Assembly (NCBI RefSeq): GCF_014191605.1
Contig: NZ_JACHWU010000001.1
Coordinates: 124,001-188,000, forward strand
Direction: 5' to 3'
DNA from: Prauserella isguenensis
GTDB lineage: Bacteria; Actinomycetota; Actinomycetes; Mycobacteriales; Pseudonocardiaceae
DNA length: 64,000 bases
The translations under genes were made by a program, and so were the position numbers. Of the stretch, positions 15,709 through 60,743 are shown piece after piece. The notes under the pieces were generated by a model. The model was not told the origin of the DNA and ran no database searches. It saw only the letters and a list, made by a program, of their open reading frames with translations. How positions within the stretch are numbered: position 1 is the stretch's first letter; each line of letters opens with the position of its first letter.

Positions 15709-16026
15709 TCAGAGGCCGCCGAGGACGTTGCCGATGTTGCTGATGGCGGAGTTCTGCTCCTCCTCGGCCTGCTGGTACTTGTGACCCGACTGCTGGAGCA
15801 GGTCGGCGATGTCCTGCAGCGCCTGGTTCAGCTTCAGGTTCTTCTCGTCGAACGCGGCCATCACGTTCTGGAACGCGCCGGCAGCCTCGCCCTTCCAGCC
15901 TGCCGAGGTGGCCTCGATGTTCGAACGGAGCTTCTGCATGTTGGAGTCCATCTGAGTCTTGGTCTCCGACACGTCCTGGAACGCCTTCTGGAACTGCTCC
16001 GGTGTCCCTGCAAAACCGCCAGCCAT
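15709..16026 (-). CDS. WXG100 protein, EsxB/EsxU-like
   Basis: 105 residues, helical hairpin with the turn W44-K-G46 (SAGWKGEAAGAF) and a C-terminal YxxxE at Y84-E88 (KYQQAEEE). First gene of the Esx pair, 62 nt before the second. Both partners carrying a YxxxE motif is worth noting, since in the classical pair only one does. The ribosome binding site AGGGGG lies 9 nt before the ATG. Confidence 0.93.
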   Translation of the reverse strand: MAGGFAGTPEQFQKAFQDVSETKTQMDSNMQKLRSNIEATSAGWKGEAAGAFQNVMAAFDEKNLKLNQALQDIADLLQQSGHKYQQAEEEQNSAISNIGNVLGGL

Positions 16027-18753: not shown

Positions 18754-21700
18754 TCACTCGGGGTTGATCCACGAGACATGCATGAGCTGTTTGCCGACCT
18801 TGCGGCTGACCAGGTTGCCACGGCCCGGAGGCATCGGCCCCGCCTTGACGTTGCCGAGCAGCTGCCCCTCGTCCTTCGACCCGTTCATGACGATGCCGGG
18901 CATCGCCAGCTCCTTGAGCTTGCCGAGGATCGGGTCCATACCGGTCCGCGCGGCACCACCGGTGCGGCGCGCGACGATCATGTGCAGACCGACGTCCTTC
19001 GCCTGGGCCAGGTACTCACCCAGCGGCCGCAGCGGGTTGTTCTGCTGGGTCGCCACGAGGTCGTAGTCGTCGACGATCACGAACAGCTCCGGTCCCTGCC
19101 ACCACGAGCGGTCCCTGAGCTGCTGCGGCGTGACGTCCGGGCCGGGCAGTCGCTTCTGCATCGACCCGGCGACCTCCTTGACGATGCCGTCGAGCTGGTT
19201 GGCCGACACGACGTACGACAGCACCTGGTCGCCCTCGACGAAGCCGAGCATCGTGCGGCGGTAGTCGACGAGGATCAGCACCGCTTCCTTGGCCGTGTAC
19301 CGGTCGGTGATGCCCCGGACGATCTGCCGCAGCAGGTTCGTCTTGCCGGACTCGCCGTCGGCGTACGCCAGGAAGTGCGGATCCGCGTCGAAGTCGAGGT
19401 ACACGGGCGCCAGCTCGTCCTCGTCGACGCCGATCGGCACCAGCTTCGAGTCGCGGCGGTGGTCCATCGCGAGCAGGTCCTCGTACGGCATGACCTCCGG
19501 CAGCAGCCGCACCTGCGGCGCCTTCCGGCCGTGCCACGCGGCGTTGATCTTCGCGACGGCGTCGCTCACGCCCTCACCGATGGTCTCCGCGTCGCTCGAG
19601 CCGTCGATCCGCGGCAACCCGCCGAGAAAGTGCAGCTTGTCGCGGGTCAGACCGCGACCGGGCCTACCCGCCGGGATGTTCACCGCGGTGCGGCGGTCGA
19701 TGTCGGACTCGCTCGGGTCACCGAGACGTAGCTCGAACCGCGTACCCAGCATGTCCTTGATGGCCGGGCGGATGTCGGCCCACCGGTTCGAGGCGATGAC
19801 CACGTGCACGCCGTAGGCCAGGCCCTGCACCGCGAGCTTCGTGATCTGCGGTTCCAGCTCCTCGAAGTCGTCCCGCAGCGCACGCCAGCCGTCGACGACG
19901 AGGAACGCGTCGCCGAACGCGTCCTGGTCGGCCGTGATGTCACCCCGGCGCTTGCGGTTACGGAAGTCGGCCATCGAGTCGACGTTCAGCTCGCCGAACC
20001 GCGCCTCACGCTCGTTGGCGAGCGTCGTCAGCTCGGCGACGATCCGGCGGGCCTTGTCGGGATCCCGCCTCGCCACGGCCACACCACCGACGTGTGGCAG
20101 GCCGTCCAGCGAGGCGAGCGTGCCGCCGCCGAGGTCGATCGCGTAGAACTGCGCCTCCTGCGGCGTGTGCGTCAACGCCATCGACATGACCAGCGTCCGC
20201 AGCAACGTCGACTTGCCCGACTGCGGACCGCCCACGACCGCGCCGTGACCCGTGGCGCCCGAGAAGTCGGCCCACATCGGGTCGCGCCGCTGCTCGTACG
20301 GGCGGTCGACGATGCCGAGCGGCACCTGCAGCTTGCCGTTGCCGAAGAATCCGACCGGCGACAGGCCGCGCTCCTCGGTCGGGTTGAGGTTGGGCAGCAA
20401 GGTGTCGAGCGAGTTCGGCTCGTTCAGCGGCGGCAGCCACACCTCGTGGGCCGGCGGGCCCTGGCCGACGAGCCTGCCGACGATGACGTCGAGCTCGCTC
20501 GGCTCGACGGCCTCCTCCGACTCGGGCTGTTGCGGTTCCGGTTCCGGCTCCGGTTCGGGTTCCGGTTCCTTCGGCAGTTCGATGTAGTCGGGCACGAAGC
20601 GCTGCGGCCGCTTGTCCGCGCGCACGACCTTCGCACCCGGCGCCGCGGCCTTGATGCCCGCGGGCCGGTAAGGACCGGACACATAGGACGCCTTGAACCG
20701 TTCGAGCGTCGACGTGTCGTACTTCAGATAGCCACCGCCGGGCACCGACGGCAGCTCGAACGCGTCCGGCACGCCGATCGCGGCGCGGGACTCCGCGGCC
20801 GAGAACGTCTTCAGGCCGATCCGGTACGACAGGTGCGAGTCCAGACCGCGCAGCTTGCCCTCTTCGAGGCGCTGCGAGGCCAGCAGCATGTGCATCTGCA
20901 GCGAACGGCCCAGCCGGCCGATCGCGACGAACAGCTCGATGAAGTCGGGCTTCTCGCTCAGCAGCTCGGAGAACTCGTCGACGACGATGAACAGCGCGGG
21001 CAGCGGGTCGAGGTCGGCACCGTTCTCGCGGGCCTTCTCGTACTCCCACACGTTCTTGAAGTTGCCGCCGTTCTTGAGCGCCTCCTGGCGGCGGTTCATC
21101 TCACCGGCGAGCGCATCCTTCATACGGTCGACCAGCGTGACCTCGTCGGCGAGGTTGGTGATGACCGCCGAGACGTGCGGCGCCTTGTCCAGACCGAGGA
21201 ACGTCGCACCACCCTTGAAGTCGACGAGCACGAAGTTCAGCGACGTCGACGAGTGCGTGGCCAGCATGCCCAGCACGAGCGTGCGGAGGAACTCGGACTT
21301 GCCGGAACCGGTCGCACCGATGCACAGGCCGTGCGGACCCATGCCCTCCATCGCGGCTTCCTTGATGTCCAGCTCGACCGGCTGGCCCATCTCGCCGACA
21401 CCGAACGGCACGCGGTAGCGGTCGCGCACCGGGCGTGGCCGCCACGCCTGCTGCACGTCGAACGTCATCGGGTCGCCGGGGATGCCCAGCAGTTCGAGCA
21501 GAGACGGGTTGGACAGCAGCGGCTGTTCCTCGCCGTCCTCGGCCGCGGCCGTGCCGATGCGGTACGGCGACAGCTTGCGCGCGAGCGCCTCCATCTCGAC
21601 GAGGCTGAGCGTGTCGGGCGCACCGAACCACTCGACGCCGCCCGCGCTGCGCGCACCCAGCCGCTCGGGCTCGGCGACCAGGCGCAGACCACGCCGGGCG

Positions 21701-22773
21701 GCGAGCGTGCCGATCGTGTCGGAGAGGTCGACCAGCGTGACGCCGACCAGCCCCTCCTCCAGCAGGATCCGCTCCTCGCCGGTGACGTCGGCGTCGTCGA
21801 GGACGATCACGATGTGCGGCTGATCCGGCGGGGGCGTGGCGTTGCGCGAGAACCGCTGCCGGTCGCGCAGTTCCTCCTCCAGCCACTGCTCGAGCTGCGC
21901 GAGCGAACCGGCCATCATGCGGAGCTGGCCGATGCCGTCCGACAGTGTCGGATGCTGGGTGTGGGGCAGCCACTTGGCCCACTCCCACTCGGCCTTCGAC
22001 CGGCCGGTCGACGCGACCGCGATGAGCACGTCCTCCGGGCTGTGGAACGTGACGAGCTGCGCGAGCGCCGCCCGCGTCAGCCCGCGGACGAGTTCCCGCT
22101 CGCCCTGCACGCCGACGGCCGCGAACCCGCGCAGCGTGATCTGCGTCGGCAGGTCCGGGACGATCGAGTGCGCGCGCACGAACCGACGCAGCGCGAGCGT
22201 GGCGATCGGCTCCAGCTCGTCGACGGGGCCGGTCTGCGGCGGCACGAGCCGCGTCGCCAGCCGGTGCGCACTACGGCCCACCCGCAGGTGGAGAAAGTCC
22301 TGGTCGTTCTGCCTGCGCTCCCACATCCGGCGCGTGGCCGCCATCGACCACAGCGTCTGCGGATCCGGGTGCACCCACTCCAGCGAGGCGCGCTGCTCCT
22401 CCATCGCCTCGCGAGCGCGTTCGCGCATCTGGCCGAGGTACCGCAGGTAGTCCTTGCGGTCCTCGTTCATCTCGGCCTTCTTCTGACCGCCCCCACGGCC
22501 GCCGCCCGCGAACATGCCGACCATCGACATGATCATCATCATCGGCATCATCATCATGAACGGGCTGGGAGCCTGCCCCTGCTCCAGCCGCGGCACCATG
22601 ATCATGCCGACCATGCCGAGCATCGCCACGATCATGACGACCGGCAGGATCTTCATCATGATGTTGCCCGGAATCGCCCGGGGAACCTCGGGTGGCGGCT
22701 CAAGGTGAACCTCGCCGCCCGGAGGGCGGGGCGCAGCAAGACGTGGCGACCGCTTGAACTGCAGCGTGCTCAC
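18754..22773 (-). CDS. eccC: Type VII secretion FtsK/SpoIIIE ATPase EccC
   Basis: 1339 residues, single-chain form. Two membrane helices lie near residues 37-60 and 70-88 (ILPVVMIVAMLGMVGMIMV; a methionine-rich second helix). Three FtsK-type ATPase domains follow, with Walker A lysines K492 (GATGSGKSE), K854 (GGPQSGKST) and K1144 (DGESGKTN). The motor of the secretion machine: it recognises the YxxxD/E tails of substrates and drives assembly and export. An acidic Glu/Pro linker lies between domains 1 and 2. The GTG start has an AGGGG site 9 nt upstream. It is divergent from eccD across 288 bp, which should hold both promoters. Confidence 0.97.
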   Translation of the reverse strand: MSTLQFKRSPRLAAPRPPGGEVHLEPPPEVPRAIPGNIMMKILPVVMIVAMLGMVGMIMVPRLEQGQAPSPFMMMMPMMMIMSMVGMFAGGGRGGGQKKAEMNEDRKDYLRYLGQMRERAREAMEEQRASLEWVHPDPQTLWSMAATRRMWERRQNDQDFLHLRVGRSAHRLATRLVPPQTGPVDELEPIATLALRRFVRAHSIVPDLPTQITLRGFAAVGVQGERELVRGLTRAALAQLVTFHSPEDVLIAVASTGRSKAEWEWAKWLPHTQHPTLSDGIGQLRMMAGSLAQLEQWLEEELRDRQRFSRNATPPPDQPHIVIVLDDADVTGEERILLEEGLVGVTLVDLSDTIGTLAARRGLRLVAEPERLGARSAGGVEWFGAPDTLSLVEMEALARKLSPYRIGTAAAEDGEEQPLLSNPSLLELLGIPGDPMTFDVQQAWRPRPVRDRYRVPFGVGEMGQPVELDIKEAAMEGMGPHGLCIGATGSGKSEFLRTLVLGMLATHSSTSLNFVLVDFKGGATFLGLDKAPHVSAVITNLADEVTLVDRMKDALAGEMNRRQEALKNGGNFKNVWEYEKARENGADLDPLPALFIVVDEFSELLSEKPDFIELFVAIGRLGRSLQMHMLLASQRLEEGKLRGLDSHLSYRIGLKTFSAAESRAAIGVPDAFELPSVPGGGYLKYDTSTLERFKASYVSGPYRPAGIKAAAPGAKVVRADKRPQRFVPDYIELPKEPEPEPEPEPEPQQPESEEAVEPSELDVIVGRLVGQGPPAHEVWLPPLNEPNSLDTLLPNLNPTEERGLSPVGFFGNGKLQVPLGIVDRPYEQRRDPMWADFSGATGHGAVVGGPQSGKSTLLRTLVMSMALTHTPQEAQFYAIDLGGGTLASLDGLPHVGGVAVARRDPDKARRIVAELTTLANEREARFGELNVDSMADFRNRKRRGDITADQDAFGDAFLVVDGWRALRDDFEELEPQITKLAVQGLAYGVHVVIASNRWADIRPAIKDMLGTRFELRLGDPSESDIDRRTAVNIPAGRPGRGLTRDKLHFLGGLPRIDGSSDAETIGEGVSDAVAKINAAWHGRKAPQVRLLPEVMPYEDLLAMDHRRDSKLVPIGVDEDELAPVYLDFDADPHFLAYADGESGKTNLLRQIVRGITDRYTAKEAVLILVDYRRTMLGFVEGDQVLSYVVSANQLDGIVKEVAGSMQKRLPGPDVTPQQLRDRSWWQGPELFVIVDDYDLVATQQNNPLRPLGEYLAQAKDVGLHMIVARRTGGAARTGMDPILGKLKELAMPGIVMNGSKDEGQLLGNVKAGPMPPGRGNLVSRKVGKQLMHVSWINPE

Positions 22774-23061: not shown

Positions 23062-24456
23062 GTGGCAACGGGCACGACCGTATTCAGCCGGGTCACGGTG
23101 GTCGCACCGAGCACCCGCATCGACGTCGCACTGCCGGCCGACGTGGCCGTTGCGGACCTGATGCCGATGCTGCTGGAGATGGCCAAGGAGGTCTCTCCCG
23201 ACGGCGGCGCTCGGCACGGTGGCTGGGCACTGGCCAAGCTCGGTGACGCTCCCCTGGACCCCAGCCGCACGCTCGCCTCCCTCGGTGTCGTCGACGGCGA
23301 GCTGCTGCAGCTGCGCAAGCGCAACGAGAACCCGCCACCGCCGCTCTACGACGACGTCGTCGACGCCATCGCCGAGGCCGATCCGGACGGCTTCCGCCCC
23401 TGGAGCAAGGAGACGGCCCGCAAGATCGGCCACGCCGCGGGCGGCCTGTCGGCCGTGCTCGCCGCGCTCGCCCTGTTCCTCGGCGGCATCGGCGGCTACG
23501 CGCTGTTCGCCGCGATCGCGGCCGGCGTGGTGGCCATCGCCGCCGTCGCGCTGGGCGCCACCCTCGTCCGCGCCTACCAGGCCGTCTCGACCGGCGTGCT
23601 GATCTCCGCCGTGGGCGGCCTGCCGATGGCGTTCGTCGCGGGCTTCTTCATCGTGCCGCTCGATACCTCGATCCGGCCGAACCTTCTGCTGGCCAGCGCA
23701 CTCGTGGTCGTGGTCGCCGCCGCCTCGATCATGATCATGGGCACGGGCCTGACGACCTTCATCGCCGCCGCGACCGCGGGCGTGTTCGGCGTCGTCGCGT
23801 TCCTCGTCGCCACGCTCGTCGACCACCCTGCGCCGGGCGTCGCCGCGGGCACGGCCGCCGTGGCACTCGGCTGCATCTCGATGCTGCCCCGCGCGACCAT
23901 CTGGCTGGCCAAGCTGCCGCTGCCGACCGTTCCGGGCACCGCCGACGAGCTCAAGGAAGACTCCGAGATCCCGGACTACTCCGACATCGAGCAGCGCACC
24001 AGCTCGGCGCACAACTACATGACGGGCCTGCTCGTCGGTTGCGGCGCCGTCACCGCGCTCGCGGCCATGCTCACCGCCACCTCCGGCGACATCTGGGGCA
24101 TCCTCACCGGTGCCATCGCCACCGTGGTGCTGCTGCTGCGCGCCCGGACGTACGCCAACGGCGCACAGGCCGTCGCACTGCTGGTCACCGGCATGGTCTC
24201 CGCGGGCGGCATCCTCATCGGGTGGCTGCAGGGCGCCGAGCCGTTCGACCAGCTGCTGTGGGCCAGCATCGCGTTCGTCGTGCTCTCCGCGGGCTCGGTC
24301 GTACTGGGCGTCGTGATCCCGAACCAGCGGTTCTCACCCCCGGTGCGCCGCACGGTCGACATCCTCGAGGCCGTCTGTATCGCGGCGGTGCTGCCGCTCG
24401 CGCTGGCGGTCATGGGCCTGTACTCGTTCTTCCGCCACCTCGACCTTCTCGGCTGA
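23062..24456 (+). CDS. eccD: Type VII secretion integral membrane protein EccD
   Basis: 464 residues. An N-terminal ubiquitin-like domain (about residues 1-90, with RVTVVAPSTRIDVALP) is followed from about residue 128 by many hydrophobic helices (about eleven), consistent with the pore-forming EccD subunit. The GTG start follows a GGGGGA ribosome binding site. It is the first gene of the rightward unit with mycP, 73 nt downstream. It is divergent from eccC, as in ESX-4 of mycobacteria. Confidence 0.95.
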   Translation: MATGTTVFSRVTVVAPSTRIDVALPADVAVADLMPMLLEMAKEVSPDGGARHGGWALAKLGDAPLDPSRTLASLGVVDGELLQLRKRNENPPPPLYDDVVDAIAEADPDGFRPWSKETARKIGHAAGGLSAVLAALALFLGGIGGYALFAAIAAGVVAIAAVALGATLVRAYQAVSTGVLISAVGGLPMAFVAGFFIVPLDTSIRPNLLLASALVVVVAAASIMIMGTGLTTFIAAATAGVFGVVAFLVATLVDHPAPGVAAGTAAVALGCISMLPRATIWLAKLPLPTVPGTADELKEDSEIPDYSDIEQRTSSAHNYMTGLLVGCGAVTALAAMLTATSGDIWGILTGAIATVVLLLRARTYANGAQAVALLVTGMVSAGGILIGWLQGAEPFDQLLWASIAFVVLSAGSVVLGVVIPNQRFSPPVRRTVDILEAVCIAAVLPLALAVMGLYSFFRHLDLLG

Positions 24457-24529: not shown

Positions 24530-26281
24530 GTGCGTTCGGTCGGTCCACACGCCGGTTCGAGATCTGCCGGCCGGTTCGGTGCCGGTCCACGGACCGGTAC
24601 GCGCCGGACGGGACCGGCCCGCCGGATCTCCGCGGTACTGCTCACCGCCGCCATCGGTGCCACGACGGCACTCGTCCCGTCGCTGCCCGCGGCCGCCCAG
24701 GCGGATGCCTGGACACCGCCGCCAGACACCGGCCTGCCGCCCGTGGGCGGTCTGAAGATGAACGGGCCGGACGAGAACTACGAGCTCCACACCGAATGCG
24801 TGAAGGCCGCCGAACTCGAGGAGGCCGACCGTCTCCGGCAGGCCCCGTGGGGGCAGCTCTACCTGCGGCTCGACGAGGCCCACCGGATCCTGGCCGCCGA
24901 GGGCAAACAGCCGGGCGCGGGCGAGACCGTCGCCGTGATCGACACCGGCGTCGAGGACGGCCACCCGTACATGAAGGGCCCCGACGGGAACAGCCGCGTT
25001 CACGGCGTCGGCGAGTACGTGAAAGAGGAAGGCGGGCCCGGCGTCCGCGACTGTGACGGCCACGGCACCGAGGTCGCGGGCATCATCGGCGCGAACACCC
25101 CACCCGACATCGGCTTCCAGGGCGTCGCACCCCACGTGCGGATCAACGCGATCCGCCAGTCCAGCCAGTACTACGAGAAGAGCGACGAGCCCGCGCAGCC
25201 GCAGAACCCGGGCGGCGGCCAGAACGGCGGCGACGGCGGCGACGGCGGTGGCCAGAACGGTGGCGACGGCGGCGGCCAGAACGGTGGCCCCGGTGGTGAC
25301 GGCGGTGGCCCCGGTGGTGACGGCGGTGCAGGCGGCGACGGCGGTGGCGACGCCGGCACCGGCGAGTCCTCGGCCACGGGCACGTCGCAGCGGCAGGCCG
25401 ACAGCGAGGAGGGCGCGGGCACGCTCGCCACGCTCGCCGCCGCGATCATCAGGGCGGCCGACGAGGCGCCCGGCAGCGTCATGAACGTGTCGATCAACAA
25501 CTGCCAGCCCTTCTCGACGACCATCGACGCCGAGAACAAGAAGCTTCAGGCCGCCGTCAAGTACGCGCACGAGGTGAAGGACGTCGTCGTCGTGACCGCG
25601 GCGGGCAACGTCGGCGAGAACTGCCAGCAGAACACCGACTCGGACCTCAACAAGCTCAACTCGATCGTCTCGCCGCCGGTGTTCTCCGACCACGTGCTGT
25701 CGGTGGCCGCGATCGGCGAGGAGGGAACCGCGCCGTTCAGCATGAACGGTCCGTGGGTCGGCGTCGCCGCGCCCGGCACGAAGATCATTTCGCTGGACCC
25801 TGCGGAGAACTCCGACCGCATCGTCAACCAGACGATCGACCCCAGCGGCAACGCGGCCCCGATCGAAGGCACGAGCTTCGCGGCACCGTACGTCTCGGGG
25901 CTGGCCGTCCTCGTGCGGCAGATGTACCCGAACCTCACGGCCACGCAGGTCATGGAGCGCATCAAGTACACCGCGCACCACCCGGCCACCCCCGACGGCC
26001 ACGACCAGTACATCGGCGAAGGCGTCATCGACCCCGTCGCCGCGCTGACCGCCGACGTGCCCCAGGAGATGGGCGTCCAGCAGATCCAGCAGCAGCCGCT
26101 GCCCGACGACCTGCCGCCCGCGAACATCCCCAACTGGACACCGTTCGCCGTGGCCGTGACCGGGTCCGCGGGCGCGCTGGTGGCACTCGGCGTGACGATG
26201 TTCGTGGTGCACACCGTGCGGCGGAAACAGAAACCACCAAGGGCCTCGGCGAAGGCGTCCTCCTCCGGCTCACCGAGCTGA
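24530..26281 (+). CDS. mycP: Type VII secretion-associated serine protease mycosin
   Basis: 583 residues. A subtilisin-family protease anchored in the membrane. It has an N-terminal signal peptide (ISAVLLTAAIGATTALVPS, cut near AAAQA), catalytic D138 (VIDTGV), H178 (GHGTEVAG) and S449 (GTSFAAPYVSG), and oxyanion N360 (AAGNVGENC). The C-terminal helix at about 540-563 ends in a basic stop-transfer. A Gly/Asn/Asp-rich insert of about 50 residues (about 226-280) sits in the loop after the catalytic His. Full length and active by motif. Coupled to eccD; convergent with eccB through the hairpin at 26550. Confidence 0.97.
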   Translation: MRSVGPHAGSRSAGRFGAGPRTGTRRTGPARRISAVLLTAAIGATTALVPSLPAAAQADAWTPPPDTGLPPVGGLKMNGPDENYELHTECVKAAELEEADRLRQAPWGQLYLRLDEAHRILAAEGKQPGAGETVAVIDTGVEDGHPYMKGPDGNSRVHGVGEYVKEEGGPGVRDCDGHGTEVAGIIGANTPPDIGFQGVAPHVRINAIRQSSQYYEKSDEPAQPQNPGGGQNGGDGGDGGGQNGGDGGGQNGGPGGDGGGPGGDGGAGGDGGGDAGTGESSATGTSQRQADSEEGAGTLATLAAAIIRAADEAPGSVMNVSINNCQPFSTTIDAENKKLQAAVKYAHEVKDVVVVTAAGNVGENCQQNTDSDLNKLNSIVSPPVFSDHVLSVAAIGEEGTAPFSMNGPWVGVAAPGTKIISLDPAENSDRIVNQTIDPSGNAAPIEGTSFAAPYVSGLAVLVRQMYPNLTATQVMERIKYTAHHPATPDGHDQYIGEGVIDPVAALTADVPQEMGVQQIQQQPLPDDLPPANIPNWTPFAVAVTGSAGALVALGVTMFVVHTVRRKQKPPRASAKASSSGSPS

Positions 26282-26622: not shown

Positions 26623-28266
26623 TCAGCCGCCGGCGGCCGCCGCGCCGCTGTCGACACCCGGCGTCTGCACCTGGACCGAGTCGTACGTCTGCCGCACGTC
26701 CTGATAGTTCAGCGAGGAACCCGCGGGCAGCATCTTGAGAATCGTTTCCGGCGCCGCGTCGAACATGTCCCCGGTCAGGCCGAGCCACTCGGCGGTCGTC
26801 ACGTCCGGAATGCTGTAGCGGATACCGCGATCGGAGACCAGCTGCAGCGGGCCTCCGTCGAACGTCTCCCGCGTGGTGGCCGAGCGGACGACCGCAGCGT
26901 GACCCGGCTGCATGTAGAACTGGTCGACCTGGTTGTACCCGTCGGGCGCGGGTGTCTCCACGTCGATCGGATTCGCCCCCTTGGGCAGCGGCGACGTGTT
27001 GTGCACGTACAGCCGGGTCACCGAGTCGCGGGCCCGTCCCTCGCCCTCGACGCTCCAGCCGAGGCAGGTGTGCGGGGTGAGTTCCTGGTCGACGATCTCG
27101 AGGTCACCGGCCACCGGCAGGTGGTCGAGCTCGTACCAGCCCTGGTCGCCCTCCGACAGCTTCGGCGCACCGGCGATGGCGCCCGGCCCCACGCGGCGCG
27201 CGGTCCTGGCGCTCTCGTCGGCGGCGAGCATGACGCTGGCCGCACCCTCGTTGATCTCCTGCACGCCCTGCTGCAGCACGAGGTAGTACGTCGTCGACCC
27301 CGCGTCCTGGACCTCGAGGACCGAGCCGACCGGCGCCGACTCCACGTCGAAGTCCTGCGGGGTGCTGCCCATTCCCGGGATCTTCGGGGCGACGAGCTCG
27401 CCGGACGCATTCGGGATGGCCTCGAGCAGGCTCGGCGACATCTTGCGGACGTCGTCTTCGCTCAGGTTGAACGCGTTCACGATCGGGTCATCGCCGGACA
27501 TGTCGACCGGCGCCTTCACCGCATCGCCCTGACCCGCCTGTGTGTCCGCCTGGCGGTAGACCAGGTAAACCGTGTTGTCGCTGCCCTTCGAATTCTTGGC
27601 GAGAATCGCCTGGTTCCGCGCCAGTTCGTCCTGACGCGCGCCGCCGGACTCGCCGGCGAGCACCTGGCTCGTGACCTCGGCCTCCTGCCGCGCCGTGGTG
27701 TCGGGCAGCGAACTGTCGTAGTTCAGGTTGTCGCACACGGCCCAGTTCTGGCCGATCGTCTGCTCGTTCGTCGGCAGCAGCGGCGGGCCGTCGGGAATGC
27801 CCCGCAGCCGTTCCCGGCCGATGTCGACCAACTGCGTGTCGGGCACGACCTGCGGCTCGAGGTCAGCGGGATCGGGCGCCTGCGGCAGCTGTCCCCCACC
27901 TTCACCGCCGTCGCCGCCCTGCTGGGCCTGCGCCATGCTCAGCAGCTTCGCGGACGCGACGTTGAACGTCGGGATGAGCCGCTTGTCGCCGCCCTGCGCT
28001 TGGTGCACGACGTAGACCTGGCCGGACTGTTCACTGATCACGATGCCGCTGTCGGGCACGGTCGGCGCCGGCTTGAAAATGCCGAACACGAGGAATCCGA
28101 GGCAGCCGAGCGCGCCGAGGACGACGCCGACCGTGGTCGCACGTCCGTGGGTTCGCATCGGGTCGTGCAGCATGACCGGGTCCTTGCGCACCAGAGCCGA
28201 CTGCATGCGGCGCAGTACGAACCGGTACGCCTGAACCTGTGACTTTGTTGTCGGTGTTGACGGCAT
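26623..28266 (-). CDS. eccB: Type VII secretion protein EccB
   Basis: 547 residues. Begins with the family signature PSTPTTKSQVQAYRFVLRR and a short cytoplasmic part; one membrane helix lies at about residues 44-66 (GVVLGALGCLGFLVFGIF). A large extracytoplasmic repeat domain follows, with two cysteines (near VCDNLNYDSS and HTCLGWSVEG) likely forming the conserved disulfide. Inner-membrane complex subunit. The ATG at 28264-28266 is certain from the signature. Divergent from eccE, with 215 bp between. Confidence 0.96.
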   Translation of the reverse strand: MPSTPTTKSQVQAYRFVLRRMQSALVRKDPVMLHDPMRTHGRATTVGVVLGALGCLGFLVFGIFKPAPTVPDSGIVISEQSGQVYVVHQAQGGDKRLIPTFNVASAKLLSMAQAQQGGDGGEGGGQLPQAPDPADLEPQVVPDTQLVDIGRERLRGIPDGPPLLPTNEQTIGQNWAVCDNLNYDSSLPDTTARQEAEVTSQVLAGESGGARQDELARNQAILAKNSKGSDNTVYLVYRQADTQAGQGDAVKAPVDMSGDDPIVNAFNLSEDDVRKMSPSLLEAIPNASGELVAPKIPGMGSTPQDFDVESAPVGSVLEVQDAGSTTYYLVLQQGVQEINEGAASVMLAADESARTARRVGPGAIAGAPKLSEGDQGWYELDHLPVAGDLEIVDQELTPHTCLGWSVEGEGRARDSVTRLYVHNTSPLPKGANPIDVETPAPDGYNQVDQFYMQPGHAAVVRSATTRETFDGGPLQLVSDRGIRYSIPDVTTAEWLGLTGDMFDAAPETILKMLPAGSSLNYQDVRQTYDSVQVQTPGVDSGAAAAGG

Positions 28267-53084: not shown

Positions 53085-53555
53085 TCACCAGCGGTAGTGC
53101 GCGAAGGCCTTGTTCGACTCGGCCATCTTGTGCGTGTCCTCGCGGCGCTTCACGCTGGCCCCGAGGCCGTTGCTCGCGTCGAGCAGCTCGTTCTGCAGGC
53201 GCTCGATCATCGTCTTCTCACGGCGCTGACGCGAGTACGTGACCATCCAGCGGAGCGCAAGGGTCGTCGAGCGACCGGGCTTGACCTCGATGGGCACCTG
53301 GTATGTGGCACCACCGACACGACGGCTCTTCACCTCGAGGGAAGGCTTGACGTTGTCGAGGGCGCGCTTCAGCGTGACGACCGGGTCGGTGCCGGTCTTC
53401 TCGCGAGCGCCTTCCAGGGCGCCGTACACGATGCGCTCGGCCAGCGAGCGCTTGCCGTCGGTCAGCACCTTGTTGACCAGTTGCGTGACGAGCGGCGATG
53501 CGTAGACCGGGTCAGCGATCAGCGGCCGCTTCGGGGCCGGACCCTTGCGGGGCAT
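53085..53555 (-). CDS. rpsG: 30S ribosomal protein S7
   Basis: 156 residues. [20 protein letters not shown] and the C-terminal [13 protein letters not shown] are typical. Primary binder of the 16S 3' major domain. The ATG overlaps the rpsL stop by one base (TAATG). Confidence 0.99.
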
Positions 53556-53929
53556 TAGCTCTTCTCCTTCTTAGCGCCGTACCGGCTGCGCGCCTGCTTA
53601 CGGTTCTTCACGCCCTGCGTGTCGAGCGAACCGCGGACGATCTTGTAGCGGACACCGGGGAGGTCCTTCACACGACCACCACGCACGAGCACCATCGAGT
53701 GCTCCTGCAGGTTGTGGCCCTCGCCCGGGATGTAGGCGGTGACCTCGATGCCGCTGGTCAGCCGGACACGCGCGACCTTGCGGAGCGCGGAGTTCGGCTT
53801 CTTCGGCGTGGTGGTGTAGACGCGGGTGCACACGCCGCGCCGCTGCGGGCTCCCCTTGAGCGCCGCGGTCTTCTGCTTGGCAGCCTTGTCCTGGCGGCCC
53901 TTGCGGACCAGCTGCTGGATCGTGGGCAA
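53555..53929 (-). CDS. rpsL: 30S ribosomal protein S12
   Basis: 124 residues. The decoding-centre loops are wild type: [20 protein letters not shown] (lysine of the K43 region) and [18 protein letters not shown] (lysine of the K88 region), so no classical streptomycin-resistance change is seen. First gene of the str operon. Confidence 0.99.
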
Positions 53930-54492: not shown

Positions 54493-55164
54493 ATGCATCC
54501 TGGCACGTTGATGGTGATTCTGCTGGGGCTTTGCGCCCTCGGAGCGCTCGTGGCGTTCCTCGTGTCCCGCCGGAACGCGGCGGCGAAGAAGATCGGCAGG
54601 GAGGAGTTCGCCCGCCGGACCGGCGCGGTCGAACACTACGTGGAGAGGGGAACGCGGCCGAGCTTCGGGGTGTTCCCCGGAAAGGACGCCCGCACCGGCG
54701 CGCCGTTCACCTACGCCGTCGAATTCACCTACGGGGGATATCCCGTCATGGCCGCCGAGTGGCGCATGGGCGGCGGAACCATGCGGGTGCGCTACACCGG
54801 CACCGTCCAGGTCCCCAGCGGCCTGCCCGCCGATGCCCCCTACCTGATGATCGGCGAGTACATGCGCTACGGCGTCGACCCGGAAACCGGCGGCAAGCTG
54901 CCTGCGCTGAAGGGGTTCGCCGACGAGCGGCTGCGCGTGCTGTGCCCCGACGAGACGTTCGCGCGGCGCATCGTCACCCCCGAGGTCGCCGCGATCTTCA
55001 CTGAACACCGGCGCAGCCGCATGATGCCGCGGGTCACCTTCGAAGGCGGGGTCATGCACATGCTGGCCGTACAGCGGCTCGACCCGGACGGGCTCTTCCG
55101 GAACGCCGAGCTACTCACCCGGCTCGCCCGTACCGTCGCCGCGCAGCAACAGCCGCCGCGCTGA
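54493..55164 (+). CDS. Single-pass membrane protein opening the T7SS-like accessory cluster
   Basis: 223 residues; no named family recognised. One N-terminal membrane helix (about residues 4-25, MVILLGLCALGALVAFLV) and then a soluble domain. The C-terminal block MPRVTFEGGVMHMLAVQRLD (about 178-197) resembles MPRLLTFESGLLYATAPGRI in the 482-residue protein at 59295, so the two share a domain. The ATG at 54493 has a GGGG-type site. It starts the plus-strand cluster, divergent from rpsL. Confidence 0.75.
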   Translation: MHPGTLMVILLGLCALGALVAFLVSRRNAAAKKIGREEFARRTGAVEHYVERGTRPSFGVFPGKDARTGAPFTYAVEFTYGGYPVMAAEWRMGGGTMRVRYTGTVQVPSGLPADAPYLMIGEYMRYGVDPETGGKLPALKGFADERLRVLCPDETFARRIVTPEVAAIFTEHRRSRMMPRVTFEGGVMHMLAVQRLDPDGLFRNAELLTRLARTVAAQQQPPR

Positions 55165-55237
55165 CGAATTTCCGCCGCGTGGGAACCGGCGGACCCGCAT
55201 CCCGGTCGAAGTGGACAGAGTTGCCAGGGAGGCGGGC

Positions 55238-55573
55238 ATGACCGGATTCAACGTCGAGATCGAAGCCCTCGAGGGCTACGGCGACAATCTCAAGTCCTTC
55301 AAGGAGCAGGCGAGCACGTTCGACGAACTGACCGGCCGCGCCGATGTCGGCGACGAGTCGTGGGGCGTCGTCGGGATCATGACGAAAGGCAAGTACGACG
55401 AGGCCCTCGCCGAGCTGAAGAACCTGCTCGACGCGCTCAAGACGGGCCTGGACACGACGTCCGAGAAGATCTCGACGGCGGCGAAGGCCTACCGCGCGAA
55501 CGACGATCAGCACGTCGTGACCCTGGGCAAGTACCAGGGTTCGATCGACACGACCGACGAGCCGCGAGTCTGA
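55238..55573 (+). CDS. EspC-like small secretion-associated protein, copy 1
   Basis: 111 residues, helical, with export motif YxxxD at Y85-D89 (AYRAND). It shares ADVGD-x-SWG-x-VGI and later LK..L...L and AAKxYR positions with copy 2 at 57853, and its Y85 spacing equals the EspC-like protein at 11575. A GGAGG site precedes the ATG. The stop lies 11 nt before the start of the WxG membrane protein, so they form a pair, presumably exported or assembled together. Confidence 0.78.
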   Translation: MTGFNVEIEALEGYGDNLKSFKEQASTFDELTGRADVGDESWGVVGIMTKGKYDEALAELKNLLDALKTGLDTTSEKISTAAKAYRANDDQHVVTLGKYQGSIDTTDEPRV

Positions 55574-55584
55574 GGGGCGGAACC

Positions 55585-56736
55585 ATGACCGAGGTCAACG
55601 ACGTCGCGGGCGACATCAGTCTGAACGCGGACAAGGAATCGGGCTTCGGCGACTACGCGATGGGCGTCGCCAAGAACACCCCGGGTGTCGAGACCGCCAT
55701 CAAAGGCGTCGACACCGTCACCAACTTCTGGCAGGGCCTTCCCGACGACCCGGACGCGGCCGACGTCATGCTGCACGGGGCCAACTGCGCCACCGACACG
55801 GCGGCGTTCATCGCCGAGTGCGGCACCGAAGCGGCGACGGCGGTGCTCGACCCGGTCGGCTGGCTCGTGGGGCACGGCCTGGACTTCTTGCTGAACCTGA
55901 TCACGCCGCTGCAGGACGCGCTGCACATGGTCACCGGCGACGGCCCGGCGCTCGAGAAGGCATCGCAGGACTTCCAGGGCATCGGCGACGGGCTCGTCGA
56001 CTACGCGAACGAGTTCCGCCGGGTCGCCGACGAGGCGCTGGCCGACTGGAACGGCGACGCGGCCGGCGCGGCCAAGAACGCGCTCGCCGACTTCTCCAAG
56101 GGCATCGACGGCGTGTCCACGAGCGCGGGTGGCGTCGTGGAGATCCTGAAGCTGTCCTCGATGCTCATGAAGGTCATCGAGGAGGTCATCAAGGCCATCA
56201 TCACGGAGATCGTCAGCTGGCTCATCGCGCTGTGGGTGCCCGCGCTCGCGGCCGCGGTGCCGACGGCGGGTGCCTCGACGGCGGCGGCCGGTGCGGCCAC
56301 GGCTCCGAAGGCGGCCGCCACGATCTCGAAGGTGACCTCGAAGCTGGGCAAGCTCGGCAAGATCCTCGACGACATCTTCGCGTTCTTCCAGAAGTTCGGC
56401 TCGACGATGGTCAAGCTCGGCAAGCGGCTCGGGGTCAAGCCGAACAGCCTCGGGGCGAAGGCCGACGAGCTCGCCGAGATCACCACGAACGCCGGGAAGA
56501 TCGGGAAGATCGCCGCCGAGGCGGGCAAGGCGGGTGCGACGAAGCTGTCGCAGGAGACCATCGGCATCGACCCGACGAGCGGTCCCGGCGACGACCCGCT
56601 CCAGGCCGCCAAGTTCGTCAACGACCACTACGGCAAGATCACCGACAACACGCGGGGTCTGAAGGACGCCGCCGACGGCGCGAACACCGGCAGCGGCGCG
56701 TCGGCCGAGGAGACCGAGGAGAACCTGCGCATGTGA
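55585..56736 (+). CDS. WxG-domain membrane-associated T7SS-like protein, copy 1
   Basis: 383 residues. An N-terminal helical region with DPVGWLVGHGLDFLLNLITP and GDGPALEKASQDF, then a WxG turn (W155-N-G157, DWNGDAAGAAKNALADF), then a hydrophobic stretch at about 198-240 (likely one or two membrane helices), then a charged helical C-terminus. It aligns along most of its length with the 371-residue protein at 58176. Such N-termini occur in actinobacterial WXG/LXG-type secreted proteins, but no toxin domain is seen at the C-terminus. Role unknown. Confidence 0.76.
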   Translation: MTEVNDVAGDISLNADKESGFGDYAMGVAKNTPGVETAIKGVDTVTNFWQGLPDDPDAADVMLHGANCATDTAAFIAECGTEAATAVLDPVGWLVGHGLDFLLNLITPLQDALHMVTGDGPALEKASQDFQGIGDGLVDYANEFRRVADEALADWNGDAAGAAKNALADFSKGIDGVSTSAGGVVEILKLSSMLMKVIEEVIKAIITEIVSWLIALWVPALAAAVPTAGASTAAAGAATAPKAAATISKVTSKLGKLGKILDDIFAFFQKFGSTMVKLGKRLGVKPNSLGAKADELAEITTNAGKIGKIAAEAGKAGATKLSQETIGIDPTSGPGDDPLQAAKFVNDHYGKITDNTRGLKDAADGANTGSGASAEETEENLRM

Positions 56737-56860
56737 CGCGTCGTCCGGCCTCCCACTGCGGGGCCGGACGATCGTGGCAGCGGGTGCGCGCACACGCACC
56801 CGGCGCAGCGAGGAGGATGGGCGGCGGCCGCCGTCCGATTGTCGTCGAGGGAGAAGCAAC

Positions 56861-57445
56861 GTGTCAGCTGAGTTCGACCGGCTCGTCGCGGAGTTCGAGA
56901 AGTTCCAGTCGAAGATGAAACACGTCGACCAGCAGATGGCCGGCGTCCAGGACATGCAGAACGAACTGGCCGAGCTCGAGGCGACCGCCTCGAACGCCGA
57001 CCGTTCGGTCACCGTCGTCGCCGGTCCCGGCGGTGCGGTCAAGGATCTGCAGCTCACCGACAAGGCGATGAACCAGCCGCCGCAGGCACTCGCCGCCGCC
57101 ATCAAGTCGACCCTCTCCGAGGCCGTCGCCGAGGCCGCACGCAAGCAAGCGGGCATCGTCGACACCCACATGGGCGGCATGGGCATCAACGCCACCGAGC
57201 AGGTCATCGAGACCCAGGCCGAGGCGTTCGGCATCCCGGCGGAGGAGTTGCGGCAGCGCATGGCCGAGGAGCAGCCGGTGCGCAGGGAGGTTCCGGTCGA
57301 GGAGGAGTACCACGAGGACTACTCACGGCAGAGTGTCTTCGGCGGCGACTCCGAGGACGACCGCCCCGCTCCCCCGCCCGCGCAGAGCGGCGGTTCGGCG
57401 GGCGACGACTTCCTCAAGAACCTCTTCGACGAGGACGACCGCTGA
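56861..57445 (+). CDS. YbaB/EbfC-family (EspL-like) protein
   Basis: 194 residues. Residues about 1-110 match the YbaB/EbfC fold (coiled N-terminal helix, then SVTVVAGPGGAVKDLQLTDK). The rest is an acidic, flexible tail with a short hydrophobic end motif (DDFLKNLFDEDD). YbaB proteins bind DNA or act as partners; in mycobacterial ESX-1 the related EspL serves secretion. The GTG start has a GAGGGAGAAG site. It lies between the two cassette copies and may serve both. It is not the recR-linked ybaB. Confidence 0.8.
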   Translation: MSAEFDRLVAEFEKFQSKMKHVDQQMAGVQDMQNELAELEATASNADRSVTVVAGPGGAVKDLQLTDKAMNQPPQALAAAIKSTLSEAVAEAARKQAGIVDTHMGGMGINATEQVIETQAEAFGIPAEELRQRMAEEQPVRREVPVEEEYHEDYSRQSVFGGDSEDDRPAPPPAQSGGSAGDDFLKNLFDEDDR

Positions 57446-57457
57446 GGCAGCCCCACG

Positions 57458-57475
57458 CGCGGCCGACCGGCCGCG
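57458..57475 (+). terminator. Short GC hairpin after the YbaB-like gene
   Basis: 8-bp perfect arms with a 2-nt centre (effective loop larger), 13 nt after the stop. No U-tract. Confidence 0.5.
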
Positions 57476-57585
57476 GCGGCTCCGCTCCCGACCGGTGTCT
57501 CCGCTGAGCACCAGGGGCTGAGCACTGCGGGCGGGGCCGGTACTGCGGGCGGGCGGGACTCGGCGGCATCCACCGGCACCTTTCG

Positions 57586-57617
57586 AGGCGGCGCTCGCAC
57601 ACGTGCAGGCGCCGCCT
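57586..57617 (+). terminator. Hairpin with short T-run in the cassette spacer
   Basis: 8-bp arms (57587-57594, 57609-57616) plus an inner GCAC/GTGC pairing, followed by TTTC. Stronger than the hairpin at 57458 and likely the true end of the first transcription unit. Confidence 0.6.
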
Positions 57618-57852
57618 TTCTCGGGTTCACGCCGTCAGCGGCGGACGCATGTACGTCAGGTCCGGTCCGGCGGGCGCGCGGGTCGGCGTACACATTCCCG
57701 GCCGGTCGACGAGCGCCGCACGTCCGAGGTCTACACCGCGGATCGGCACGGTCCGGTGTCGCGTCCGAGGGTGAAACGGCATCATGTCCTGTCAGACGCG
57801 CGCCGAGCCGCCGTAGGCGCCGCGCGCGAGCGGCAGCAACGAGGAGGGGGCC

Positions 57853-58173
57853 ATGAGCGGCTTCGACGTCAATGCGAACGAACTGGATACCTACGCCGGG
57901 AAACTGGGCGGCCAGCGGGAGACCGCGGGCCAGATCGGGAGTTTGGTCGACAAGGCCGACGTCGGCGACCAGTCCTGGGGGATCGTCGGCATCTTCGTCC
58001 TCAACAACTACAAGGAGATGCTCGGCGACCTCAAAGATCTCTTCACGAGCCTCGACGAGGGTTTCGCCTCCGGTGAGGACAAGTTCAAGAACGCGGCCAA
58101 GGGCTACCGCGAGAAGGAGCGAGCGGTGAAGGAGCTCCTGGACAAGTTCGACATCACGATGGGGGGCAAGTAG
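57853..58173 (+). CDS. EspC-like small secretion-associated protein, copy 2
   Basis: 106 residues. Paralogue of the protein at 55238, with the same SWGIVGI segment and YxxxE at Y85-E89 (GYREKE). Helical, no signal peptide. The ribosome binding site GAGGAGGGGG is very strong. The stop is 2 nt before the next ATG, so it is co-translated with the 371-residue protein. Confidence 0.8.
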   Translation: MSGFDVNANELDTYAGKLGGQRETAGQIGSLVDKADVGDQSWGIVGIFVLNNYKEMLGDLKDLFTSLDEGFASGEDKFKNAAKGYREKERAVKELLDKFDITMGGK

Positions 58174-58175
58174 CC

Positions 58176-59291
58176 ATGGCCGAAGAGACGACCGAATCGG
58201 GCGGCGTCGAGATCACGACCGGCGGCAAAGGCCTGGGCACGACGGCACTGGAATCCGCACCGTTCCTCGGCGGCGCGATCAAGACCTTCCAGGCAGGCGG
58301 CAAGCTCACCGACGGTGCGGACCCTTCCGAGATCGGTGGGCTGCTGTCAGAAGGCACGAGTTTCATCTCGTCCTGCGCAGGCACCGCGGGTGAGATCGCC
58401 ATGGACCCCATCGGCTGGCTGGTCGGGCAGGGCCTGGACTTCCTCATCTCCATCTGCCAACCGATCCAGGACGCCATCCATATGGTCAGCGGCGACGGCC
58501 CCGCTCTGCAGCAGGCAGCCGACAACTTCAAAGCCATTGGCCAAGGCATCCAGGAGCTGAGCGGAAAATTCAGTGAGGAACTGAACTCGTCGCTGCAGAA
58601 CTGGGGCGGCGAGGCGTCCGAGGCAGCGGGTACCAAGCTCGCCGACTTCGCCAAGGGCATCGACGGCGTCGCCGGTCAAGCGGGCGAGCTCTCCTCACTG
58701 CTCCAGATGTCCAGCATGGTGATGACGGTCATCGAGGAGTTCATCAAGGCCATTCTCACCGAGTTCATCACCTGGCTGATCATGATCTGGGTCCCCGCGA
58801 TCGCGAGTGCGGGGCCGACCTTCGGCGCCTCCACGGCCGCCGCAGGCACGGCCACCGGCGTCCGCGCTGCGAGCACGGGCAGCCGGGTGTCCCGCATGGT
58901 GCAGAAACTGAAGGACGTCCTGAACAAGATCATGGACTTCCTGCGCCGCATGCGGACCCGGATGGGCAACCTCAAGCAGGGCGTCCGCCAGGCGATGGAT
59001 CACAGGAGGATGCGGAGCGGTCTGGCCGACTTGGCAGTCGAGGACGGCACCGCCGGCGCCCGGGAGAAACTGCTGAGCGGCGACGGTCTGGTCGGCGAAC
59101 AGCTGCAACAGGGCTTGGGCAGGTCCATGTGGGAGGCAGGCAAGGATTCGCTCAAGGACCAGGTCGGCGTGGGTCCCAACGGCAAGGGAAAGCTGTACGG
59201 CAACCTCGGCAAGGTCGCCGGAGCCGCCGAGGGCGAAGGAACCGGCGAAGACCAGTCCAAGAGCGAGACCGAAGACCACTTGGACATCTGA
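58176..59291 (+). CDS. WxG-domain membrane-associated T7SS-like protein, copy 2
   Basis: 371 residues. Paralogue of the protein at 55585: DPIGWLVGQGLDFLISI, GDGPALQQAADNFKAIGQGI, WxG turn W143-G-G145 (NWGGEASEAAG), hydrophobic segment at about 186-228 (EFITWLIMIWVPAIASAG). Its C-terminus is different from copy 1: basic (MRTRMGNLKQGVRQAMDHRR) then acidic. Conservation of the front half with divergence behind is like polymorphic secreted proteins. Function unknown. Confidence 0.78.
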   Translation: MAEETTESGGVEITTGGKGLGTTALESAPFLGGAIKTFQAGGKLTDGADPSEIGGLLSEGTSFISSCAGTAGEIAMDPIGWLVGQGLDFLISICQPIQDAIHMVSGDGPALQQAADNFKAIGQGIQELSGKFSEELNSSLQNWGGEASEAAGTKLADFAKGIDGVAGQAGELSSLLQMSSMVMTVIEEFIKAILTEFITWLIMIWVPAIASAGPTFGASTAAAGTATGVRAASTGSRVSRMVQKLKDVLNKIMDFLRRMRTRMGNLKQGVRQAMDHRRMRSGLADLAVEDGTAGAREKLLSGDGLVGEQLQQGLGRSMWEAGKDSLKDQVGVGPNGKGKLYGNLGKVAGAAEGEGTGEDQSKSETEDHLDI

Positions 59292-59294
59292 CGC

Positions 59295-60743
59295 ATGGAC
59301 TCCCTACTCGAAGGCATCGGAGATTGGTTCGACAGTCTGTCGGTCCTGCTCGACATGTGGCCACTGCTGCTCGGCCTCGCCGCGCTCCTTCTCTACGGCA
59401 TCCGGTCCTCACGACGGCGAGCCCGTCAGGAGGCCGAAGCCAACCTCGCCCAGCTCCACGAGATGGCCAAGCCACTGAACGGCACGGTGTTGACCGGGGA
59501 CCAGGCCGAGGGCTGGTCGACCGGACTGTGGCCACCGTTCGAGAGGAACAACCGCGGTCTGCGCCGGTTCGGACGGCGAAGCAAACCTCAGTTCGGCATG
59601 GCCGTCGAGTTCACCCGCGGGCCATGGCGGGTACGCATCAGCCAGGCATCGCAGCGGTCGCGCACGGCCAACCGCCGGTTCGTCACCACCTTCGAACACC
59701 GCATCGACATCGCCACCGCCGATCTTCCGCCGCTCAAGGTGTCCCAGCGGCAGTACACGGATTACCGGGGGCGACCGCACGATCCGGACGACGAGGCTTT
59801 CCTGTTCGGATCGCCGCTGGTCAAGGAACCACCCGCCACCGCCGAACAGCGTCAGGACCACTGGGTCCAAGCGGCGGTGTCGGCTCCGGCGAACCAACAC
59901 CTCGCGGCGTTCACCAGTGACCCGGCCGCAGCAGCGCGCATGCTCAACGGCAACGCCACAGCATGGCTCCTCGACCGGCAGCGTTCGATGCCGCGACTGC
60001 TGACATTCGAGTCCGGCCTGCTGTACGCCACGGCACCCGGCCGCATCGACCCGTTCGGTGCCACCGAGACCGTCAACACGATGCTCGGGCTCCTCGACTG
60101 CATCCCCGGAGCGGCGCCCGCCGGGGCCGTGGCGGGGGCGACACCCGCTCAGGCGGGCCACGCGACACCCGTGCACTCCCAGGTCGAGAACGAGAACCAC
60201 CTGATCGCCGAAACCCCACCGCCGGCGGCCGAGGACGACGAACACAAGTCCTCGGCCATGTCCACGCTGGGCTTCATCGGCATCGCGATCGCCGGACTGG
60301 CTCTGCTCCTCGGCCTACTCGGTTACGGCAGTGTCGCCATGATCAACGGAGTCGGCATGGCGACCGGACTGTCCGAAGAGATCGAGGTGCACATCATCGG
60401 TGAATCCGACTGGCGCGCCCATCGCCACAGCAGTATTACCTCGAAGTTCGTCGGCGAGTACACGGTGGACGGTCGGACTCACCAAGTCGGTGTGAGCAGC
60501 GGAGAGGTCGGTGACGTGATCGAGGGGAACCTCCCGCCGCTGCCCATCGAGTGGCTCGGGTTCCACTACGACGAGCCGACGACCGATACCAACTGGTGGG
60601 AGCCGTACCTGTACATCCTCGCCGGTGTGGTCTGTTTCGGCCTATTCGCGGTGCCGATATGGCTGGGTCGTGCCGATAGGAAGGACATGGCCGCCGCAGC
60701 GCAGGACTCGGCGCCCGGCGAACCGTCGACGCGACCGGAATGA
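59295..60743 (+). CDS. Membrane protein with shared C-block, end of accessory cluster
   Basis: 482 residues. First membrane helix at about 20-38 (MWPLLLGLAALLLYGI), two more at about 322-352 and 437-457, so part of the chain is outside. The block MPRLLTFESGLLYATAPGRI (about 232-251) is homologous to one in the 223-residue protein at 54493; the later half is an extra, not present there. It starts 3 nt after the 371-residue gene. With that gene and the EspC-like one it forms the second copy of the cassette. Terminated by the hairpin at 60761. Confidence 0.76.
   Translation: MDSLLEGIGDWFDSLSVLLDMWPLLLGLAALLLYGIRSSRRRARQEAEANLAQLHEMAKPLNGTVLTGDQAEGWSTGLWPPFERNNRGLRRFGRRSKPQFGMAVEFTRGPWRVRISQASQRSRTANRRFVTTFEHRIDIATADLPPLKVSQRQYTDYRGRPHDPDDEAFLFGSPLVKEPPATAEQRQDHWVQAAVSAPANQHLAAFTSDPAAAARMLNGNATAWLLDRQRSMPRLLTFESGLLYATAPGRIDPFGATETVNTMLGLLDCIPGAAPAGAVAGATPAQAGHATPVHSQVENENHLIAETPPPAAEDDEHKSSAMSTLGFIGIAIAGLALLLGLLGYGSVAMINGVGMATGLSEEIEVHIIGESDWRAHRHSSITSKFVGEYTVDGRTHQVGVSSGEVGDVIEGNLPPLPIEWLGFHYDEPTTDTNWWEPYLYILAGVVCFGLFAVPIWLGRADRKDMAAAAQDSAPGEPSTRPE

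Follow-up and report, generated by a model that had tools for sequence, protein, structure and literature searches.

A YbaB-family gene amid two sets of type VII-like substrate genes in Prauserella isguenensis, with a membrane protein of predicted TtfA fold

What do seven genes resembling parts of a type VII secretion system (T7SS) do between rpsL and rpoC? The question is raised by a 64,000-nucleotide (nt) stretch, hereafter the window, of the 4.95-Mb genome of Prauserella isguenensis (C1:124001-188000). An earlier note on the window had described seven plus-strand genes in two related sets with a YbaB gene in the middle, and the open reading frames (ORFs) are real, lie where it had placed them and fill the rpsL–rpoC interval. 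The answer that we consider reasonably probable is that the cluster encodes two heterodimeric type VII substrates, which would be exported by an ESX-4-type machine, together with a dedicated chaperone of YbaB fold and a membrane factor of TtfA fold. This proposal rests on observed genes, families, motifs, conservation and co-occurrence, on a single EccB and on the fold match of a predicted model; binding, export, the chaperone role and each step given to the TtfA-fold protein are what we infer. The genes and their flanks are as follows.

53555-53929, minus strand: rpsL, left flank of the set
54493-55164, plus strand: MEMa, 223 amino acids (aa), an N-terminal transmembrane (TM) segment at about 1-27 and a soluble domain; its profile family is that of the MEMb N-terminal domain
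55238-55573, plus strand: EspC-like small partner 1, 111 aa, with YRAND (Y-x3-D); PF10824 at 23.0 bits, cut-off 23.5
55585-56736, plus strand: large WXG protein 1 (WXG1), 383 aa, with a WNG turn and a hydrophobic segment at about 200-228
56861-57445, plus strand: YbaB-family protein, 194 aa, GTG start, with an acidic, proline-containing tail ending FLKNLFDEDDR
57853-58173, plus strand: EspC-like small partner 2, 106 aa, with YREKE (Y-x3-E) but without a Pfam match
58176-59291, plus strand: large WXG protein 2 (WXG2), 371 aa, PF06013 at 34.2 bits, a W143-G-G145 turn and a hydrophobic segment at about 189-226
59295-60743, plus strand: MEMb, 482 aa, an N-terminal TM segment, a predicted TtfA-fold domain at about 47-274 and a two-TM domain (319-351, 435-453)
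from 61005 onward, minus strand: rpoC, right flank of the set

Each set holds a small EspC-like protein, a large WXG protein and a membrane protein, with the single YbaB gene between the sets and the membrane gene upstream in set 1 and downstream in set 2. The scripted gene calls are heuristic, and the genes were compared with those of the closest named relatives that turned up (Prauserella alba, salsuginis, halophila and aidingensis). Pairwise ratios of nonsynonymous to synonymous change (dN/dS) against these four species were 0.13-0.45, which indicates that the sets are under purifying selection and are not chance ORFs. The ratios are simple pairwise counts, and MEMb, the fastest-evolving gene of the set at 0.42-0.45, entered three of the four comparisons, the two-ORF membrane gene of P. 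alba being excluded.

The T7SS-like identity that had been proposed for the cluster is borne out by its small and large proteins. The small pair shares 41% identity over 86 aa (E 2e-21) and the large pair 41% over 315 aa (E 6e-67), so the clear alignment claimed for the pairs stands for these two; the membrane pair is weaker, with 33% identity over only 64 aa (E 9e-6). When partners were aligned in pairs, Y-x3-[DE] with an invariant Tyr was present in 64 of 64 small proteins and a WxG turn in 64 of 64 large ones. This is the same split as in the WXG100 and PE/PPE-EspG heterodimers of T7SSa, where each partner contributes one of the two motifs, WxG or Y-x3-[DE]. The YxxxD/E motif has been named as a characteristic of type VII substrates (PMC6107294). 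In Pfam, WXG2 matches WXG100 at 34.2 bits (cut-off 27.3) and WXG1 falls below the cut-off; small protein 1 approaches the EspC family (23.0 bits against 23.5), and small protein 2 has no match. The alignments behind the family scans took in 57 of 65 large, 39 of 64 small, 26 of 53 YbaB and 39 membrane proteins, with rows picked by hand and similar rows thinned. All 57 large proteins match WXG100 at E ≤0.1, along with EspB_PPE in 33 and PPE in 29, and small homologs match EspC in 24/39 and WXG100 in 18/39 cases at E ≤0.01. Searches of Protein Data Bank (PDB) sequences with large- and small-protein profiles gave no clear match, and a fold search with a weak model of the large protein found nothing at E ≤0.001 and WXG100 and PE/PPE chains only at E 0.9-3.3.

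Past its helical hairpin the large protein has a hydrophobic segment that ranks among the two best conserved parts of the alignment, which suggests membrane insertion at some step. The earlier note had called these WxG proteins membrane proteins; the WXG family assignment holds, and they would be better called secretion substrates with a hydrophobic segment. Partner distances of EspC and WXG proteins correlate with r 0.919, and 1000 within-genome swaps of partners, made in 14 two-cassette loci, gave a mean of 0.569 and a maximum of 0.824. Since swapping also breaks shared history, the correlation shows joint inheritance, and it fits physical pairing without proving it. The C-terminal residues of the large proteins (about 56698-56733 and 59253-59288 of the window) are conserved in type, QSKSETEDHLDI and ASAEETEENLRM, and are perhaps a docking tail.

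Does the YbaB-family protein serve these pairs or the DNA? Its match to Pfam YbaB/EbfC (PF02575) scores 42.1 bits against a cut-off of 25.5, which upholds the original assignment of the middle gene as YbaB/EspL-like. That family bears a DNA-binding name, and the protein could be a DNA-binding regulator of the locus, with the EspC-WXG pairs exported without it. However, the YbaB proteins of the cassettes have a strongly negative net charge (mean -16.4, n=26) relative to canonical ones (-4.6, n=5, heuristic starts), and all 26 aligned rows end, past a proline-rich stretch, in an FLKNLFDDED-like or FLNLYDDED-like motif (about 57405-57442 of the window). The charge and this long hydrophobic-acidic tail fit a protein-binding rather than a DNA-binding role without proving it. 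A PDB search with the YbaB alignment gave a top match that is probably spurious and one weak match to an uncharacterised chain. Precedents come from ESX-1: EspH, a predicted YbaB-like protein, is reported to bind EspE and to be required for secretion of EspE and EspF (PMC6107294), and EspL to stabilise EspE, EspF and EspH (PMC6319747). EspA and EspC are similarly reported to be stabilised by EspD (PMC6107294, PMC6319747). EspL loss also lowered WhiB6, which would suit a regulator, but the espE, espF and espH transcripts were unaltered in the espL mutant (PMC6319747). We regard the regulator as very unlikely. By analogy with the ESX-1 sets, which share the make-up of EspC-type protein, large partner and YbaB, we take the YbaB protein to be a putative chaperone of the pairs.

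A neighbourhood survey for conserved co-occurrence, which the earlier note had named as a test that could refute it, came out in favor of the set. Scanning species genomes with WXG2 alone as the query yielded 49 named Pseudonocardiaceae loci, in Prauserella, Amycolatopsis, Saccharomonospora, Saccharothrix, Lentzea and Actinosynnema. All 49 carry same-strand EspC-like and YbaB genes (in L106 the contig end truncates the YbaB gene) and a same-strand membrane gene of the wider family. In L126 a large ORF overruns the start of the membrane gene, which was counted by profile, and in L117 one large protein has no start-called EspC partner, an EspC-profile ORF overlapping its start. The membrane proteins fall into three groups, two of which join the third only through profile comparison (probability 94-95%). 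The membrane gene follows the large protein directly in 58 of 63 cases (36 from the main group, each matching the family profile, then 15 and 6 from the other groups, and 1 by profile alone). Of the five exceptions, four belong to set 1 in the window's own clade, where the YbaB gene follows the large gene and the membrane gene lies upstream; the other is a set-1 relative from Saccharomonospora, in which no gene was called behind the large one. An overlap of 4 or 1 nt joins the YbaB and EspC genes in 34 of 53 cases, and the gap between EspC and WXG genes is mostly below 30 nt. The common arrangement thus resembles a single operon in the order YbaB-EspC-WXG-membrane.

Homologous loci in other genomes rule out a lone insertion peculiar to this genome. 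Both rpsL and rpoC were present in the fetched stretches of 24 loci, one of them in 6 and neither in 19. The cassette had also been called duplicated, and this is right for an ancient event only. A tree of 65 large proteins (midpoint-rooted, with a tool warning that long branches meet) places WXG1 and WXG2 in different, well supported clades, set 1 grouping with Saccharomonospora sp. NB11 and an Amycolatopsis orientalis group. This grouping of WXG1 with rows from other genera, apart from WXG2, rules out a recent tandem duplication; the split therefore predates the genus, and the two sets, whose gene order also differs, are by their sequences ancient paralogs. The large family was found in 2 of 396 genomes of the phylum at E 1e-15, this genome and one of the same order, where the match lies within a 1651-aa ORF. 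In an order sample, 79 of 298 genomes have a match to the single protein at E 1e-10, weak matches in long ORFs included. By these scans the large family is narrow and the YbaB arrangement, described below, wider.

What the membrane protein contributes is a harder question. MEMa and MEMb both seed one iterated profile family whose members elsewhere adjoin a WXG gene, and MEMb adds a two-TM domain to the shared domain. Pfam has nothing above cut-off for either protein. In the AlphaFold model of the 482-aa protein, most of residues 20-275 have a predicted local distance difference test score (pLDDT) near 95, with a dip at 151-180. The best solved fold match of the MEMb soluble-domain model is TtfA (PDB 6t84; VIA-align Z 14.8, 3.2 Å, 170 of 178 residues), the next best standing at Z 9.2, and Foldseek compares model and TtfA at E 4.9e-4 with a TM score of 0.60 on the target. 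The cytosolic domain of MEMb, as modelled, has the TtfA fold. A profile of 39 membrane-family members picked up no TtfA chain among PDB sequences at E ≤10. We made no use of weaker fold neighbours (ribosome-translocon chains at Z 9.2 and 8.3, a type III secretion chaperone at Z 6.3, DR_1245 at Z 5.3) or of a weak DUF3137 match in 5 of 39 membrane proteins (best E 4e-4). By the charge rule the domain is cytosolic in 100 of 103 cluster members in which a TM segment was found, a redundant set. Two related loci show the domains apart: in P. alba (L081:9117-10521) the membrane gene is two overlapping ORFs that part near the linker between domains, and in Amycolatopsis arida (L118:9742-10209) the two-TM domain is a separate small ORF, whereas it is fused to MEMb in Prauserella.

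The fold match brings in another explanation, that the membrane proteins act as TtfA does, in envelope lipid transport beside a resistance-nodulation-division transporter, and that the exported pairs serve the envelope. TtfA is described as an N-terminally anchored partner of MmpL3 (TM at residues 2-24) that is required for transport of trehalose monomycolate (PMC6593404). It is the clear top fold match and, as in MEMb, its N-terminal TM segment is followed by a domain of the same fold. However, MEMb has no found sequence similarity to TtfA, stands in another gene context with no transporter gene among the seven, and carries the extra two-TM domain. Pseudonocardiaceae are not known to have mycolates, which also counts against a lipid role. 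TtfA homologs are reported among mycolate producers (PMC6593404). We judge this explanation quite unlikely.

Is the pairing of YbaB with type VII cargo confined to this cassette? The window's genome has six YbaB genes, one canonical, with a neighbour that we take to be recR, and five divergent, one of which is the cassette gene. The other four divergent genes all lie beside both an EspC-like gene, matched by local profile at E ≤2e-4, and a large gene in which a T7SS-type domain passes the Pfam cut-off. Three of the large neighbours are a 524-aa WXG100 protein and T7SS_signal proteins of 412 and 532 aa, one of the two T7SS_signal loci also carrying a membrane gene of the MEM family. At the fourth (L141:3453-7539, on C5 of the same genome), YbaB and EspC-like genes precede a gene for a 1005-aa protein that starts with WXG100_2 and ends in a TNT toxin-family domain (106 bits, cut-off 27). 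Right after this gene lies a 90-aa ORF with no Pfam match, a possible immunity gene. Across 88 genomes from the class, YbaB scores are bimodal: 62 lie at 79-124 bits, one each in 62 genomes, and 42 at 26-56 bits.

Regions of about 8 kb were fetched around 37 divergent YbaB genes of 14 other genomes (34 regions), with six canonical controls. WXG or EspC genes lie near the divergent YbaB gene in 27 of the 34 and in none of the remaining seven. Twenty of the 27 were counted by local profiles anywhere in the region, four or five of them weakly (E 1e-3 to 7e-3), and seven by Pfam WXG100_2 in the large gene. Among the 23 large neighbours scanned, 14 match WXG100_2 and four a toxin family of papain-fold glutamine deamidases. 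For the small gene that comes next, Pfam gave EspC in 9/20 and WXG100 in 5/20 cases, with double matches possible. The controls gave 0/6 with EspC or WXG by local profiles, none of four large upstream genes scanned with Pfam was WXG, and the next gene was RecR by Pfam in 6/6; in one control the gene finder had missed the YbaB ORF. None of the nine EspG genes of the window's genome was seen in an operon with YbaB: eight loci with 1.5-kb flanks have no YbaB match, and at the ninth a YbaB operon is the divergently oriented neighbour. A strict either-or of YbaB and EspG was dropped, as 5 of the 34 divergent-YbaB regions of the class sample also hold an EspG match. It is a tentative proposal, which we hold at somewhat less than even chances, that divergent YbaB proteins form a second general class of T7SS chaperone parallel to EspG, serving toxin and non-toxin substrates and coupled to a TtfA-fold substrate-handling component.

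The toxin neighbours invite the reading that the window's set is itself antibacterial and contact-dependent, the large WXG protein being a membrane-inserting toxin through its hydrophobic and Gly/Ala-rich segment and the adjacent membrane protein its immunity protein. Sister YbaB-EspC operons do front toxin-like proteins (the four deamidase-family neighbours of 23, and the TNT protein with its 90-aa ORF), the N-terminal module is weakly common to ORFs of about 1100-1800 aa in other genomes, and both the fast evolution of MEMb and the three diverged groups of downstream membrane proteins would suit immunity. However, no toxin family was listed for the window's large proteins and the 55 homologs scanned, 57 in all, and the hydrophobic segment is highly conserved, unlike variable toxin ends. 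The rpsL–rpoC position in 24 of 49 loci is likewise unlike accessory toxin loci, and the domain of the membrane protein is cytosolic in the redundant charge-rule set already given. A toxin set is in our estimation unlikely.

If the pairs are exported by type VII secretion, which machine would export them? The components of an ESX-4-type locus are present in the window.

15359-15646 and 15709-16026, minus strand: WXG100 pair of the ESX-4-type locus
18754-22773, minus strand: EccC-like ATPase with three FtsK/SpoIIIE stretches
23062-24456, plus strand: EccD (PF19053, PF08817)
24530-26281, plus strand: MycP-like subtilase (PF00082)
26623-28266, minus strand: EccB, the sole EccB match of the genome

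The locus lies 26 kb from the gene set and adjoins the genes for ribosomal proteins S9 and L13, a known neighbourhood of ESX-4. With one EccB in the genome, the ESX-4-type machine is the only candidate for type VII export of the pairs, and the likely use of this machine, proposed at the outset, gains support; an EccB is necessary for Ecc-dependent secretion but does not suffice to establish it. EccB is present in 34 of 34 tested genomes with the large protein, 12 of which have just one. In 24 of the 34, by comparison of positions, EccB shares a contig with a listed large-protein match and is 26-35 kb from the nearest one. Two further genes were seen here: a 734-aa Hsp70-like protein (16497-18701, minus strand) between the WXG100 pair and the EccC gene, and an extra WXG100/EspC-like gene (11575-11928, minus strand) 3.4 kb from the pair, adjoining what we take, by the look of its sequence, to be glmM.

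Chaperoned export of the pairs, the course that we prefer, would run as follows. The YbaB protein would bind and stabilise one or both EspC-WXG pairs after translation. A composite export signal would arise from Y-x3-[DE] in the small partner together with the large partner's WxG turn, and the single ESX-4-type machine (EccB/C/D and MycP) would export the pair. The bitopic membrane proteins, their predicted TtfA-fold domain lying on the cytosolic face of the membrane, might take up the chaperone-substrate complex or keep it close to the machine, or else help to place the exported protein by way of its conserved hydrophobic segment. The proposal is weakest on what the TtfA-fold protein does, which may be a membrane-side substrate receiver, a lipid-transport factor or an immunity protein. 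Several observations weigh against the proposal as a whole. TtfA is known from lipid transport and not from type VII export, and likeness of fold shows no function. The YbaB gene of the window overlaps neither neighbour, starting 124 nt past WXG1 and ending 407 nt short of the EspC-like gene of set 2. No EspA/EspE family is among the 20 families listed for the 57 large proteins at E ≤0.1, and AlphaFold models the large protein poorly when it is taken by itself (mean pLDDT 51.6). Finally, EccB occurs in 6 of 6 genomes of the same family without a large-protein match and in 1 of 5 from other families; its presence in the 6 non-carriers means that EccB co-occurrence discriminates weakly.

How far is such a set new? 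The closest relatives are the mycobacterial ESX-1 sets EspF-EspE-EspH and EspC-EspA-EspD, which have the same small EspC-type partner and a YbaB-like chaperone, with a large partner of similar size. Unlike them, the window set lies outside mycobacteria, lacks an EspA/EspE match among the families listed, has its sole EccB in an ESX-4-type locus, adds a TtfA-fold membrane protein and includes no EspG or EccA among its seven genes. EspL is also YbaB-like, a proposed post-transcriptional stabiliser of ESX-1 substrates; it has 115 aa, whereas the window's YbaB has 194, with a conserved acidic C-terminal motif, and is tied to one substrate family. Relative to PE/PPE-EspG, the neighbouring chaperone candidate here is YbaB-like, and the EspG genes of the genome are at other places. 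The WXG100_2 polymorphic toxins of actinobacteria also have YbaB, EspC-like and large WXG genes together, whereas no toxin domain was found in the window's large proteins or their 55 scanned homologs. A literature search, with most subscription papers outside it, turned up no description of the gene set or of a link between TtfA and type VII secretion, and no occurrence of 'YbaB' was counted in the accessible parts of a review of T7SS variants (PMC11217815) and a survey of polymorphic toxins (PMC3482391). The wider recurrence of the organisation, the TtfA fold of the membrane protein and the ancient paralogy are points that the earlier note had missed.

An ESX-1-like set in a genome whose only EccB is of ESX-4 type, together with YbaB-EspC genes ahead of toxin-family proteins, would make the chaperone question testable in harmless soil actinomycetes. 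It would also offer a possible function for divergent YbaB paralogs that are now filed under the name of a DNA-binding family, and it would tie the fold of a mycobacterial factor, TtfA, to type VII gene clusters. If a general class of YbaB chaperones with a TtfA-fold component is borne out, the role of TtfA in lipid export would represent a single branch within a broader family of such factors.

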